In this document: one piece after another, positions 4,093 to 28,294 of the stretch | Numbering within the stretch: the first letter of the stretch is position 1 | How the letters are laid out: each line of letters begins with the position of its first letter | From: a virus | Virus record (IMG/VR): IMGVR_UViG_3300037294_000016 | Coordinates: 1-30,195 of that record | Strand: one strand, 5' to 3' | Length of the DNA stretch: 30,195 nt | Made by a program: the position numbers and the translations under genes | Notes under the pieces: generated by a model | Seen by the model: the letters and a program-made list of their open reading frames with translations, nothing else | What the model was told of the DNA's origin: nothing | Databases searched by the model: none

Positions 4093-4956
4093 TTAAGCAG
4101 CTAGTGCAAAAGAAATAGCGGCTTCGTCACGCAACTCTTTCACGCCGTAAAGCATGTCAGAAGTGAACAATGTACCCAAGTACTCTTGCTTGTACTGAGT
4201 CTGGCTACGCACGCCTTGTTGCTCAGCCAATACAAAGGCTTCTTTATGGAACATCAAACCAATACGGCTAGTAGTAGTCGTAGCGGTGTCAGCGTTGGTA
4301 GACACATAAACGGTCATGCCGTATACGTCACCAATCTTACCGTTGCGGATAGTGTTACCACCACCAACTTCACCAGTAAAGGCTTGCTCAGTAAAACGAG
4401 CCAAACCCATCATAGTGTTACGGGCGACAGGGGGCAACACCATGCAACGACCGTCCATTGGCACATCAGCATCATCCAATGTCTGAATCATCTTGCGAAT
4501 ACCAGCATCAGTGATTGCGTTACCAACGTTAGTACCGTCAACATATGCAGTTGAGCCGTCACCAGCCAACACAGCGCCATTGTAAGCGGCAGTGCCGTTA
4601 CCACCAGCAGCGCCACGACCCAATTGAACCAAGTCGGTGTCAACTTGTTTAGCCAAAGCATAACCAGCATCACCGGTGTAGAACTTACGCATTGAAGACA
4701 AGGCTTGCACTTCCGTGATGTCCTCGATCAAACGTGAGTACTCGTAGTGCTTGTTAACCAACACTTGAATTTCAGTTTCAGTAGCAGCAATCAAAGTAAC
4801 TTGTGTTGATGCGGCTTTAATAGCAGCAGAACCACGAGTTGGCTTTGGAATGTGCAATGTGTCGCCTTTTTTGCCTTTGAAAGACATCTTAGAGACGAGG
4901 TTAGCCATAACGAGGTTCTGCTTGTAAGCAGCGATGATCTCGTCAGACCAGATTTC
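4093..4956 (-). CDS. Major capsid protein, exon 2 (main part)
   Basis: 287 codons plus stop, starting in the middle of the protein at EIWSDEIIAAYKQNLVMANL. It has the features of a family of phage major capsid proteins: GKKGDTLHIPKPTRG at about 28-42, HYEYSRLIEDITEVQALSSM, and an acidic and Gly-rich middle. There is no usable ATG at its start; a TTG at 4959 precedes it without a good ribosome binding site. It joins in frame to exon 1 at 5608-5555, giving a 305-aa MCP, after removal of the group I intron. The product forms the head shell. It follows the scaffold gene, the usual order for phage heads. Confidence is high for MCP and for the split. Confidence 0.92.
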   Translation of the reverse strand, partial: EIWSDEIIAAYKQNLVMANLVSKMSFKGKKGDTLHIPKPTRGSAAIKAASTQVTLIAATETEIQVLVNKHYEYSRLIEDITEVQALSSMRKFYTGDAGYALAKQVDTDLVQLGRGAAGGNGTAAYNGAVLAGDGSTAYVDGTNVGNAITDAGIRKMIQTLDDADVPMDGRCMVLPPVARNTMMGLARFTEQAFTGEVGGGNTIRNGKIGDVYGMTVYVSTNADTATTTTSRIGLMFHKEAFVLAEQQGVRSQTQYKQEYLGTLFTSDMLYGVKELRDEAAISFALAA

Positions 4957-5554
4957 CAAACATGAATTACGTCATGTCCGACTATAGCATCACAAGAAAG
5001 ATAACATTCTTTCTTGCGCCTTTTCACTTAGTCTGTGCGGGTCACGCTTCATTAGCTTAAACTCTTCTCGAACAGCGTTGAGCGTGTCTTGCTCTAGCCT
5101 TGTTCCTTTTAAATTAGTCTCCATCCAGAGACATAATCGAGCTTGTTCCTTCTTCAGGATGAGATGATTAACAACATTACGCAAAACAGGGCAAGTAGCT
5201 TTATAACCAGACAATGTCCATGTAGTGGACGATTGCCATTTGTCATTTTTACTTTCTCTGCTTGATAAGTGTCCACCAAAGTTTAGTTGATTCATCTCCA
5301 ACAAAAATAATGCTGAATCTGCCATTCCTATACGCAACCTTGGCTGAATATAGAATTGTTCGTTAACTTTAGTGGTGGCTAAGTCTATACAACCTTCGCC
5401 ATCGATCAATCCCGCTAAATACTTCCAACTTACTCGCTTCATAATACCTCCTAGTATTGAATTGCGTTTTGGTTCTTCGTGTTCCCTCTGATTAGCGGTA
5501 TCAGCCGCCTTCCAGTTATTTAGAAAAGGTTTTACATCCCCAAAATTACTTAGT
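4957..5554 (-). mobile_element. Group I intron in the major capsid gene (598 nt)
   Basis: The intron begins ACTAAGTAA right after codon CCT and ends in G (4957) just before codon GAA. P1: exon end CATCCCT (5561-5555) pairs with GGGGATG (5541-5535), with U.G at the splice site. P10: ATTTT (5546-5542) can pair with GAAAT of exon 2. P7: GACTA (5033-5029) with TAGTC (4984-4980). P8: a perfect 9-bp stem, 5016-5008 with 5001-4993. P9: ACATGA with TCATGT (4977-4972, 4965-4960). P3-P6 were not resolved; a GCGG/CCGC hairpin in the 5' part may be P5. The intron removes in-frame stops and carries a LAGLIDADG gene. Splicing is inferred from structure and restored protein. Confidence 0.9.
4990..5442 (-). 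CDS. LAGLIDADG homing endonuclease (intron-encoded)
   Basis: 150 aa with one clear catalytic motif, YLAGLIDGEGCIDL, at residues 9-22, where the acidic residue at the end of the motif and the flanking Gly are present. A later segment (ILKKEQARLCLWM) resembles the second half of a LAGLIDADG fold. One motif suggests a homodimeric enzyme. Such enzymes cut intron-less alleles to spread the intron; here the target would be the MCP gene around the FIP/EIW codons. It has a very strong AGGAGG ribosome binding site. Its 3' end lies inside the intron core: it contains the P7 5' strand, and its last codons form one arm and the loop of P8. Confidence 0.92.
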   Translation of the reverse strand: MKRVSWKYLAGLIDGEGCIDLATTKVNEQFYIQPRLRIGMADSALFLLEMNQLNFGGHLSSRESKNDKWQSSTTWTLSGYKATCPVLRNVVNHLILKKEQARLCLWMETNLKGTRLEQDTLNAVREEFKLMKRDPHRLSEKAQERMLSFL

Positions 5555-5608
5555 AGGGATGAATACCGCGCCGGTGGTATTCGTTACGTGGTTTGTACCT
5601 AGTGCCAT
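5555..5608 (-). CDS. Major capsid protein, exon 1 (N-terminal 18 codons)
   Basis: Codes MALGTNHVTNTTGAVFIP, then runs into the intron and hits TAA two codons later. The sequence matches the usual N-terminus of this MCP family (AVFIP followed by E-x-WSDE), and that continuation is exactly what exon 2 supplies at 4956. The ATG at 5608 has AGGA about 9 bases upstream and lies 25 bases after the scaffold stop. If unspliced, only a 20-residue peptide would be made, so MCP production depends on the intron. Confidence 0.88.
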
Positions 5609-23303: not shown

Positions 23304-23541
23304 ACTCGCCGGTATGGACTGGGAGACGATAAGAAGTGAGACAGATGCACTAGGGTACACAGACCCTGACAACTCACGTATCATTCTTAACAAGAAGCTA
23401 GAAGGTCAAGTAGCAGAGGTTACTTTCTACCACGAGCTTGTTCATGCAATTATGTTTACAATGGGTGAACGAAACCATGATGAGAAGTTTATAGAAGGTT
23501 TTGCTCAATTGTTATATCAGTATGAGCGACAGAAAGTATAA
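23272..23541 (+). CDS. Small HELVH metallopeptidase-like protein
   Basis: 89 aa. FYHELVHAIMFTMGE at about 52-66 includes a zinc-binding HExxH, and DEKFIEGFAQLLYQY supplies a Glu (near 74-77) that may be the third ligand. This pattern is widespread in small phage proteins that look like minimal ImmA/IrrE or SprT-type zinc peptidases. The substrate is unknown; candidates are host regulators. It has AAGGAG 8 bases before its ATG within the exonuclease gene, and overlaps the HNH gene by 20 bases. Confidence 0.7.
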   Translation: MKCGTHLKKFKLAGMDWETIRSETDALGYTDPDNSRIILNKKLEGQVAEVTFYHELVHAIMFTMGERNHDEKFIEGFAQLLYQYERQKV

Positions 23542-23977
23542 CGGTGGTGAGTGGACAGAGGCGCGGTGGAAAGCATTTATAATATCAACAGCTAGAGGCG
23601 GAATGAGACGTTACCCTCCCAAGTGGCAAGCGCTTAAAGATGCTGGCATTGGTAAGAAGGTTAACAAATATTCTGGTCGTATGGCTGAACATTATATTTG
23701 CTCTGGGTGTGGTAACTTCTTCATTGCTAAGGATGTGCAGATAGACCACACCGACCCCGTAGTTGACCCAGCTACTGGGTTTGTTAATTGGGACACCTAT
23801 TTCGACCGCTTATATTGTGAAGTGGAGAACTTGCAAGTTTTGTGTCGCAGTTGCCATAATGTAAAAACACAGGCTGAAAGAAAGGAGAGAACGATTGCTA
23901 AAATGCACAAAGTGTCAGATGGAGAAGCAGCCACACCAGATGTCAAAAGACGCAAGAAGGCGGGAGGGTCTAAGTAG
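23522..23977 (+). CDS. HNH endonuclease
   Basis: 151 aa from the ATG at 23522. The N-terminus has WTEARWKAFIISTARGGMRR. The HNH site is YICSGCGNFFIAKDVQIDHT, then LQVLCRSCHNVKT, with two Cys pairs for zinc and the DH pair for catalysis. Similar proteins occur in replication regions of many phages and usually end soon after KTQAERK; here 30 further residues continue into the next gene, overlapping it by 83 bases. It may nick DNA in recombination or replication, or be a free-standing homing enzyme. There is no strong ribosome binding site, so coupling is likely. Confidence 0.85.
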   Translation: MSDRKYNGGEWTEARWKAFIISTARGGMRRYPPKWQALKDAGIGKKVNKYSGRMAEHYICSGCGNFFIAKDVQIDHTDPVVDPATGFVNWDTYFDRLYCEVENLQVLCRSCHNVKTQAERKERTIAKMHKVSDGEAATPDVKRRKKAGGSK

Positions 23978-24353
23978 TTGGTGTAAGGATTGTCGTAAAC
24001 AAACAGCACGAAGATGGGAGGCAACTCACCCAGAAAAAGCTAAAGAGGCTAAGAAAAATATCAGGAACAAAGAAGGGTATCAAGAACTATCTAGAGGTTA
24101 TATTCTAAAACATAGGTATGGAATTACTTTAGATGATTATGGTGCTTTACTGGAAAAACAAGGGTGGTGTTGTGCTGTATGTAATGTTAAACAAGATGAC
24201 AAAACCTACCATTTCCATGTAGACCATTGTCACACTACAGGTGTGGTTAGGGGGCTTCTTTGTTCACCTTGTAATGTATTTCTTGGTGTTATAAAAGACG
24301 ACACTGATGCGTTGAAGAGAGCAATAAATTATCTTGAAAGGAAGAAGAAATGA
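23895..24353 (+). CDS. Endonuclease VII-family nuclease, copy 1
   Basis: 152 aa, starting at TTG 23895 with AAGGAG 8 bases upstream, inside the HNH gene. CTKC and CKDC near residues 4-7 and 30-33 form an N-terminal zinc site. The core CCAVCNVKQ ... FHVDHCHTTGVVRGLLCSPC has the zinc Cys pairs and the HxDHxH catalytic motif of T4 gp49-type endonuclease VII, followed by FLGVIKDDTDALKRAINYLE. T4's enzyme resolves branched DNA before packaging; many free-standing relatives are mobile. Its position before thyX and AT-rich bases suggest mobility. A second, diverged copy occurs at 27863. Confidence 0.88.
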   Translation: MLKCTKCQMEKQPHQMSKDARRREGLSSWCKDCRKQTARRWEATHPEKAKEAKKNIRNKEGYQELSRGYILKHRYGITLDDYGALLEKQGWCCAVCNVKQDDKTYHFHVDHCHTTGVVRGLLCSPCNVFLGVIKDDTDALKRAINYLERKKK

Positions 24354-26123: not shown

Positions 26124-27870
26124 GATGGACATGAGCCGTGACGCTCTGTTTGACACTCTTGGCCTACAACGCCTACGAGAGAGTTATATGATGGACGGAG
26201 AGGTTAGCCCACAGGAGAGATTCGCATATGTATCGCAGGCTTTTTCAAGCAGCCCTGAGCACGCCCAGCGACTTTATGAGTATAGTTCTAGCCATTGGCT
26301 CAGTTATAGCACTCCTATTCTTTCTTTTGGTCGTAGTAAGCGTGGACTTCCTATTAGCTGTTTTCTTAACTATATGGAGGATAGCGCGCGAGGTTTGGTT
26401 GATAATCTATCGGAGACAAACTGGTTAAGTATGTTAGGTGGTGGTGTTGGTGTCCACCTAGGCATTCGTAACTCAGATGAGAAGAGTACTGGTATCATGC
26501 CTCACTTAAAGATGTATGATGCCTCTAGCTTGGCTTATCGACAGGGACGCACACGCCGTGGTAGTTACGCCGCCTTTTTGGACATTAACCATCCTGACAT
26601 TATCCAGTTCTTAGAGATGCGTAAGGCAACGGGCGACCAGAACCTACGCACACCTAACTTAAATCATGGTGTTAACGTATCAGATGCCTTTATGCAGGTG
26701 TTAGAGAAGGCAATGTTAGACGATGACTTTGATGATAGCTGGGACTTAATCAACCCTGCTAGTAAAGAAGTTGTTGAGACGATATCAGCTAAGTACTTGT
26801 GGCAGAAGTTGTTAGACTTACGTATGCAGACCGGAGAGCCTTACCTTATCTTCATTGACGAAGCTAACCGTAAGATGCCCTCATGGTTGCAGAAGGAGGG
26901 GTTAACAATTAACGGTAGTAACCTATGTACAGAAATCTTCTTACCCACCAGTAAAGATCGTACAGCGGTGTGTTGCCTTAGTAGTTTGAACTTGGAGTAC
27001 TTCGATGATTGGAAAGGTAATGAAAAGTTTATACCTGATGTTATGGAAATGCTTGACAATGTTATTGACTATTTCCTCAACTACGCTCCTGATAGTGTTC
27101 ATCGTGCAATTTACTCTGCTACCCGTGAGAGGTCTATTGGAATTGGCGCGTTAGGTTTTCATGCATACTTACAGAAGAATAACTTAGCCTTTGAGGGTGT
27201 GATGGCCAAGATGACTAACAAGGATATCTTCAGCCATATAAACAAGGAGTGTTTGCGTGGAGATTCTTACTTGGCTGATAAACGTGGTGCATGCCCTGAT
27301 GCTGCTATGCATGGGGTTAACAGGCGCTTTAGTCATCACATGGCTATTGCACCCAACGCATCGTCTTCTATTATCATGGGTAATACCAGTCCTAGCATTG
27401 AACCTTATCGGGCTAATGCTTATCGTCAGGATACTTTAAGTGGTGCATATGTTACTAAAAATAAATGGTTGGCTAGAGAACTCGCTAAGATTGGGTTGGA
27501 TGATGATGACACATGGGCAACAATTATCGCCAACGATGGCAGTGTGCAGCATCTGGACATTGACGACAATATGAAGGCTGTGTTTAAGACTGCGATGGAA
27601 CTTGACCAGCGCTGGATTATTGAGCTTGCTAGTGACCGTCAAGTCTATATCGACCAAGGGCAGAGTGTTAACCTATTCTTCCGTCCAGATGTGCAGATCA
27701 AGTATCTTCATGCTGTACACTTCATGGCGTGGAAGAAGGGGTTGAAGAGCTTGTATTACCTACGTAGCGATAAAGTGCGTAGGGCAGAAAAAGTAGGCAG
27801 TGCAGTTAAGTTAACCTCGATAGACTTATCTGCTATAGTGAACGGAGAAGGGTGTTTGGCTTGTGAATGA
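26113..27870 (+). CDS. nrdA: Ribonucleotide reductase class I large (alpha) subunit
   Basis: 585 aa from the ATG at 26113 with AGAGGA 8 bases upstream. Active site residues are visible: PISCFLN (C83), SNLCTEI (N270, C272, E274), VCCLSSLNL (C288), SLYYL (Y548, Y549 for radical transfer) and the C-terminal CLAC pair (C581, C584) for re-reduction. TRERSIGIGALGFH is the core barrel signature. There is no N-terminal ATP-cone, so dATP feedback is probably absent, common in phage enzymes. It reduces ribonucleotides to deoxyribonucleotides with the NrdB encoded after the endonuclease VII gene. Confidence 0.95.
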   Translation: MTIKMDMSRDALFDTLGLQRLRESYMMDGEVSPQERFAYVSQAFSSSPEHAQRLYEYSSSHWLSYSTPILSFGRSKRGLPISCFLNYMEDSARGLVDNLSETNWLSMLGGGVGVHLGIRNSDEKSTGIMPHLKMYDASSLAYRQGRTRRGSYAAFLDINHPDIIQFLEMRKATGDQNLRTPNLNHGVNVSDAFMQVLEKAMLDDDFDDSWDLINPASKEVVETISAKYLWQKLLDLRMQTGEPYLIFIDEANRKMPSWLQKEGLTINGSNLCTEIFLPTSKDRTAVCCLSSLNLEYFDDWKGNEKFIPDVMEMLDNVIDYFLNYAPDSVHRAIYSATRERSIGIGALGFHAYLQKNNLAFEGVMAKMTNKDIFSHINKECLRGDSYLADKRGACPDAAMHGVNRRFSHHMAIAPNASSSIIMGNTSPSIEPYRANAYRQDTLSGAYVTKNKWLARELAKIGLDDDDTWATIIANDGSVQHLDIDDNMKAVFKTAMELDQRWIIELASDRQVYIDQGQSVNLFFRPDVQIKYLHAVHFMAWKKGLKSLYYLRSDKVRRAEKVGSAVKLTSIDLSAIVNGEGCLACE

Positions 27871-28294
27871 TGTAGTATTAAAAATATGTAAAGGTTGCGA
27901 ACAGTCTAAGCCTATTTTTGATTTTTATAAGAACAGAACTTCAAGGTTAAACTATTGTAAAATTTGTTGCTATGAAAAAGAATCAGCTTATAGAATAACA
28001 GCCGAGGGTTCTCGAAGTAAGAGAGCATCTACATTACTAAGAAAGTATAAACTGAGTTATGAAGGCTACCTTAAAATGTTGGCGGGTCAACATAATGAAT
28101 GTTTAATATGTAACTCAAGTATTAAAGAAAAAGGAAGTAAATCTGAAATAGCACATGTAGATCATAATCATTTAACAGGAAAAGTTAGAGGACTACTTTG
28201 CGGTTATTGTAATTCTGTGTTGGGTGTATATAAAGAAGATACTAATATATTTCAAAAAGCAATTAACTACTTAAAGGAACATGATGAAGAATAA
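27863..28294 (+). CDS. Endonuclease VII-family nuclease, copy 2, between nrdA and nrdB
   Basis: 143 aa, probably starting at GTG 27863, overlapping the nrdA stop by 8 bases. CKGC and CKIC (about 9-12 and 31-34) match the N-terminal Cys pairs of copy 1. CLICNSS, then HVDHNHLTGKVRGLLCGYCN, is the endonuclease VII core (HVDHNH; Cys pairs), and VLGVYKEDTNIFQKAINYLK is the same ending as copy 1. Codons are A/T-rich and unlike nrdA and nrdB. It lies in the same slot as the free-standing homing endonuclease mobE of T4. A mobile origin is inferred. Its end overlaps the start of nrdB. Confidence 0.88.
   Translation: MNDVVLKICKGCEQSKPIFDFYKNRTSRLNYCKICCYEKESAYRITAEGSRSKRASTLLRKYKLSYEGYLKMLAGQHNECLICNSSIKEKGSKSEIAHVDHNHLTGKVRGLLCGYCNSVLGVYKEDTNIFQKAINYLKEHDEE

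Follow-up and report, generated by a model that had tools for sequence, protein, structure and literature searches.

How is a complete major capsid protein (MCP) made from a gene whose first exon runs for only 18 codons before a stop? In the virus record IMGVR_UViG_3300037294_000016, of which a stretch of 30,195 nt (the window) was analysed, the MCP gene consists of two minus-strand exons flanking a 598-nt insert (5554-4957). The best explanation, which we hold with high confidence on the strength of comparison with relatives, is that the insert is a mobile, splicing group I intron within the MCP gene, carrying a LAGLIDADG endonuclease.

The interrupted capsid gene and its intronless relatives

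Beyond the CCT that ends at 5555, the frame of exon 1 continues as ACT AAG TAA, a stop at the third codon of the insert. Joining the two exons gives a frame of 305 residues (MALGTNHVTNTTGAVFIP-EIWSDEIIAAYK) that reads ...FIP-EIWSDE... at the junction, with a predicted spliced junction 5555/4956 of ...TTCATCCCT-GAAATCTGG. At the protein level, exon 2 resembles phage head proteins (phrog_267, 2.9e-53; Pfam Phage_capsid_2, 9.1e-8). With a probable scaffold gene, an SU10/P22-type portal gene and a terminase gene upstream, the surroundings are those of an ordinary module of head genes. The insert lies in the gene for the main shell protein of a virus of bacteria. The features of the locus are as follows.

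5608-5555, minus strand: MCP exon 1, 18 codons (MALGTNHVTNTTGAVFIP), its last 7 nt being the P1 5′ strand
5554-4957, minus strand: group I intron, 598 nt, last base G (4957)
5554-5542, minus strand: P1 loop, with the in-frame stop TAA as third codon and the P10 5′ strand (5546-5542)
5541-5535, minus strand: P1 3′ strand and internal guide sequence, GGGGATG
5529-5523, minus strand: P3 5′ strand, CCTTTTC
5515-5512, minus strand: P4 5′ strand, CTGG, pairing with TCAG (5491-5488); U/C change in relatives
5509-5494, minus strand: P5 hairpin
5486-5478, minus strand: 5′ strands of P6 (GGG) and P6a (CACG)
5458-5443, minus strand: hairpin AATAC-TAGGAG-GTATT, with a Shine-Dalgarno sequence in its loop and the ORF start codon directly after its stem
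5442-4990, minus strand: LAGLIDADG homing endonuclease ORF, 150 aa, single motif LAGLIDGEG, co-directional with the MCP gene
5046-5039, minus strand: 3′ strands of P6a (CGTG) and P6 (CCC), inside the ORF
5035-5029, minus strand: P7 5′ strand, CAGACTA, inside the ORF
5025-5019, minus strand: P3 3′ strand, GAAAAGG, inside the ORF
5017-4991, minus strand: P8 hairpin, overlapping the ORF end
4984-4979, minus strand: P7 3′ strand, TAGTCG
4977-4960, minus strand: P9 hairpin
4956-4093, minus strand: MCP exon 2, 287 codons, with the P10 partner at its start

Relatives place the insertion point within this gene. A scan of IMG/VR with exon 2 found at least 599 relatives, and nearly all of the 80 that were kept run unbroken through the junction. 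The comparison of MCP homologues with and without the intron, which the sequence-only reading had put forward as a check, yielded 76 homologues that align as empty sites, with FIPEIWSDE continuous across the junction. The MCP of L001 is 94-95% identical to that of the window and runs through FIPEIWSDE without a break, and the high-identity DNA match between the two starts exactly at 4956. The intron was present in only one of the 80 (L013), and is therefore rare in this sample of exon 2 relatives. That exon 1 codes for only 18 residues before stops, and that the exons rejoin in frame as FIP-EIWSDE, had both been read from the letters of an interval (4957-5608) covering exon 1 plus the intron, and both readings were borne out.

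The intron core and the reading frame within it

The core was modelled by comparison of 37 distinct relatives, across which P1, P3, P7 and P10 are kept by compensatory changes. In the window, P1 joins CATCCCT (5561-5555) to GGGGATG (5541-5535) in 7 bp with a terminal U.G, and the exon U is paired with a guide G in all 37 distinct introns, one guide base of L119 reading N. Guide and exon change together: at site A, the insertion site of the window, the variants AUCCCU/GGGGAU, AUUCCU/GGGAAU, GUUCCU/GGGAAC and GUCCCU/GGGGAC occur. P10 pairs ATTTT (5546-5542) with the GAAAT of exon 2; it tracks exon 2 among the relatives (GAAGTT with AACTTT and, at site B, both CAG/CTG and CTG/CAG), with a length of 2-6 bp, short in some members. 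The last intron base is G in the window and likewise at the frame-restoring 3′ ends of the relatives. P5, P8 and P9 are hairpins of varying sequence.

The P3-P7 pseudoknot, with the guanosine site in P7, shows the same covariation. Against CCUUUUC/GAAAAGG in the window, P3 reads CUUUCUC/GAGAAAG, CCGUUUC/GAAACGG, CCGAUUC/GAAUCGG, CCCUAUC/GAUAGGG and others in relatives. Its 13 distinct arm combinations are 98.9% paired, versus a mean of 79.6% and a maximum of 93.4% on shuffling (0/20,000 shuffles reach the observed value), figures that describe introns of shared descent, not independent ones, and that are not probabilities. At the P7 pair adjoining the guanosine site, 41 cases have C-G, three G-C and one A-U (45/45 paired). 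So many differently compensated arms form a pattern that descent alone does not explain.

A search with Rfam, including the group I model RF00028 to which the sequence-only reading had looked for confirmation, gave no group I match at E 1 or E 10, and no group II or other match. Such a match serves to detect group I introns and does not define their structure, and the miss is likely due to the 453-nt ORF that splits the middle of the core. In subgroup IA, to which the introns of T4, SPO1 and many phages belong, extra helices P7.1/P7.2 lie between P7 and P3; the window has only 3 nt between P7 and P3′, too few for that assignment. On its compared core pairings, we regard the insert as close to certain to be a group I intron. 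The P1 with U.G at the 5′ site, the P10 and the terminal G that had been read from the window alone hold across the relatives, and comparison strongly supports the reading of the insert as a group I intron that carries a LAGLIDADG ORF and interrupts the MCP gene.

The ORF product has a single motif, LAGLIDGEG, of which D14, G15, E16 and G17 are invariant among relatives. It matches Pfam LAGLIDADG_1 (PF00961) at 2.5e-6, above the cut-off, and the PDB profile of I-CvuI at 4.5e-6; its structure model (pLDDT 90) matches I-CvuI, I-MsoI and I-CreI at E 2e-8 to 3e-7. I-CreI, I-CvuI and I-MsoI sit in algal organelle rRNA introns and act as dimers. The window protein shares with them the single motif, a length of about 150-170 aa and the predicted fold, but is only 16-23% identical to them. 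By motif, profile and fold it is a LAGLIDADG endonuclease of this type, a predicted dimer and putative cutter of DNA. A search for its target placed the best pseudo-palindrome centre at +3, with a symmetry that the top one of some 60 positions could reach anyway. Across 16 close pairs dN/dS was about 0.09 (0.089), and the protein is therefore under purifying selection.

This ORF reaches deep into the ribozyme. Synonymous differences were 0.12 over the ten codons MKRDPHRLSE, which are also P6′/P7, versus 0.73 in the ORF body. Among the 37 distinct introns, the ORF stops before the P7 3′ strand (in P8 or J8/7) in 17, inside it in seven and beyond it (in P9 or exon 2) in 13; these positions fit the ‘core creep’ idea, which predicts ORF extensions of variable length (PMC3073962).

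Two translation signals also emerge from comparison. A stop in the MCP frame occurs in 27 of 27 distinct P1 loops, versus a shuffled mean of 7.0 and maximum of 15, and versus one or two in the other frames; stops after exon 1 have been noted before in group I introns (PMC3984707, PMC3073962). The hairpin before the ORF start covaries, with 21 distinct stems of 4-6 bp in 34 start regions, and holds the Shine-Dalgarno sequence inside its loop in 27 of the 34. Because the last codons of the ORF in the window also form P6′, P7, P3′ and P8, the hairpin probably limits translation of the ORF. RNA structures hide the Shine-Dalgarno sequences of T4 homing endonucleases, and td splicing falls when this control is lost (PMC2988022); the hairpin here may play a comparable part.

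Horizontal movement and insertion sites

Scanning IMG/VR with the ORF protein yielded 44 loci at 46-100% identity. An MCP gene follows the ORF in 43 of these; the exception, L124, breaks off within the ORF and has an MCP-like exon 1. We widened the set with two probes, a 14-mer from the P4/P6 region and a 23-mer from P6′/P7. Behind the 23-mer, 46 of 47 distinct loci have a detectable MCP, and the other, L161, carries the intron in a gene that is highly divergent but has the look of an MCP gene. Intron-bearing capsid genes include ones only about 24% identical to the window MCP, and the intron family appears bound to capsid genes. The family members are uncultured contigs: in the phage isolate collection searched there was no DNA match to the intron and no isolate that carries it, and a search of genome contigs returned only weak relatives, at 41% or less. 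The divergent MCP-like gene of L161 (8260-9795) is interrupted by an intron of the site-A type and then, some 44 nt beyond the start of the following exon, by a further group I-like intron carrying a double-LAGLIDADG ORF.

The presence of the intron on the MCP tree needs at least 13 changes, and the closest MCPs to that of the window include intronless ones. The window endonuclease is 89% identical to endonucleases in MCP genes whose products are only 65-68% identical, while L093 and L176 have nearly identical MCPs with introns at different sites (one at B, one at A) and endonucleases that are only 62% identical. Intron and MCP trees thus disagree, and by this comparison the intron moves horizontally. 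The introns of L093 and L176 belong to separate branches, which looks like competition of two introns for a single target.

Four insertion sites were found: A (CCT/GAA, as in the window), D at +6 (L119), C at +7 (L113) and B at +10. Joining the exons at any of them restores EIWSDE or the corresponding residues, and each site comes with a guide sequence matched to it, guide and exon changing together and U.G being kept throughout. Site B is represented by six distinct introns in the tree, and sites C and D by one contig each, that of site D (L119) with one guide base N. In the endonuclease tree, the site-B introns nest among those of site A, joined with them in an A+B group of strong support (100/99), and the introns of sites C and D branch separately. 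The splice point was apparently re-anchored three times within one target region of ten bases (by 6, 7 and 10 nt). That one capsid-bound family moved its splice site repeatedly, from A to +6, +7 and +10, keeping endonuclease and core and acquiring a new guide and P10 each time, is a tentative reading to which we give slightly less than even chances. If true, it would provide a stepwise route for group I introns to new sites without transposition. Searches of the open-licence literature turned up no description of group I introns shifting their splice sites, which is weak evidence of absence.

One contig holds two such introns in a single MCP gene (L113, 3366-4883), at site C and then site B, with a 3-nt exon (GGT) between them. 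The P1 pairing, judged by eye, suggests that the first must splice before the second. The second intron encodes a double-LAGLIDADG protein of 250 aa, and a search for relatives of this endonuclease returned only itself. A resident intron may have supplied the 5′ end of site B, an idea based solely on eight shared bases in L113; in a search for other introns with a site-B-like start (TGGTTRTCGTAA), the extra matches were not capsid-intron-like and were without the family 23-mer.

Proposed mechanism, rival explanations and known systems

These observations suggest the following course of catalysis, cleavage, homing and translational control. The pre-mRNA would fold into P1-P9, guanosine would attack after CCCU at the 5′ site, and the 3′ site would be taken after the terminal G, aided by P10; translation of the joined exons would give the 305-residue MCP. 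On unspliced RNA, translation of exon 1 would end at the P1-loop stop, keeping ribosomes out of the core. The P6-loop ORF would produce a single-motif LAGLIDADG endonuclease, its output limited by the hairpin at the ribosome-binding site, and this enzyme, acting as a dimer, may cut intronless MCP alleles at the FIPEIWSDE codons, whereupon repair would copy the intron in.

The sequence-only reading had suggested that splicing could time capsid production. A regulatory intron, whose timed or conditional splicing sets when or how much capsid is made, would suit a protein needed in bulk late, and translation and splicing could interfere, as the ORF starts in a hairpin and ends in the core. However, its patchy presence among close MCPs (13 changes) and the different introns of the near-identical MCP genes of L093 and L176 point to a neutral mobile element, and no conserved switch was seen outside the intron. 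An efficiently splicing mobile element should be found in some MCP genes and be missing from close relatives of these, as is the case here. The suggestion is left unsupported, and we consider regulation unlikely.

Still less probable is that splicing does not occur, the gene being either disrupted by a dead insertion or expressed as two separate proteins. Exon 1 is indeed short and soon reaches a stop, and the frame of exon 2 is open on its own, but exon 2 has, by eye, no ribosome site at its start. Gene disruption was rejected on the conservation of exons and intron core across dozens of phages, with compensatory changes, and on the continuous FIPEIWSDE of intronless relatives. An intein, a group II intron and a translational bypass element can all interrupt phage genes; these we judge extremely improbable and have rejected. 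An intein is excluded by the in-frame stops that all members share, a group II intron would have neither an Rfam match nor a reverse transcriptase ORF here, and P1, P3, P7, P10 and the terminal G are hallmarks of group I.

The sequence-only reading had called an intron in the capsid gene unusual, which overstates the case: capsid introns are already known as a kind, and that of the window adds a member. For mycobacteriophage LittleE, splicing of a capsid intron with a LAGLIDADG ORF inside was shown in 2013 by RT-PCR and protein sequencing (PMC3706429), a paper that also cites a capsid-gene intron in Tuc2009. The two are alike, as inserts in tailed-phage MCP genes, in the U before, the G at the end and the LAGLIDADG-type ORF. 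They differ in that the LittleE ORF is on the opposite strand, whereas that of the window is co-directional and overlaps the core; compared by description, the LittleE intron was left as ‘most likely group I’, whereas the window core is backed by covariation. In crAss-like Delta phages the MCP gene is a typical group I intron target, and in Delta/Zeta phages a recurrent one, sometimes with several introns; in the available part of that source these are known from endonuclease domains, described without analysis of site or guide sequence (PMC7886860).

The T4 td intron with I-TevI (PMC2988022, PMC3073962) shares the P6-loop ORF with its 3′ end part of the core, the ribosome-site hairpin and, as in most group I introns, the in-frame stop after exon 1. 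It encodes a GIY-YIG rather than a LAGLIDADG enzyme, and its structure sequesters the Shine-Dalgarno sequence, which here lies in the hairpin loop; the overlap of ORF and core is larger here (P6′/P7/P3′/P8, and P9 or exon 2 in some members). What appear to be new, and undescribed in the open-licence literature, are a large unnamed family restricted to MCP genes and its shifting splice sites. The family, which Rfam misses, hides the start of the capsid gene, so that the MCP, a marker often used in virus surveys, is cut short by automatic annotation. The family also offers natural replicates for two questions, the change of group I insertion sites and the creep of ORFs into the ribozyme core.

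Further endonuclease ORFs lie elsewhere in the window. Two are of the Endonuclease VII type (PF02945) and are probable free-standing homing endonucleases: one (23895-24353) is just before an ORF starting at 24350 that is ThyX-like by eye, and the other (27863-28294) separates nrdA from the next ORF, which by eye resembles nrdB. An HNH endonuclease ORF (PF01844) is at 23501-23977.
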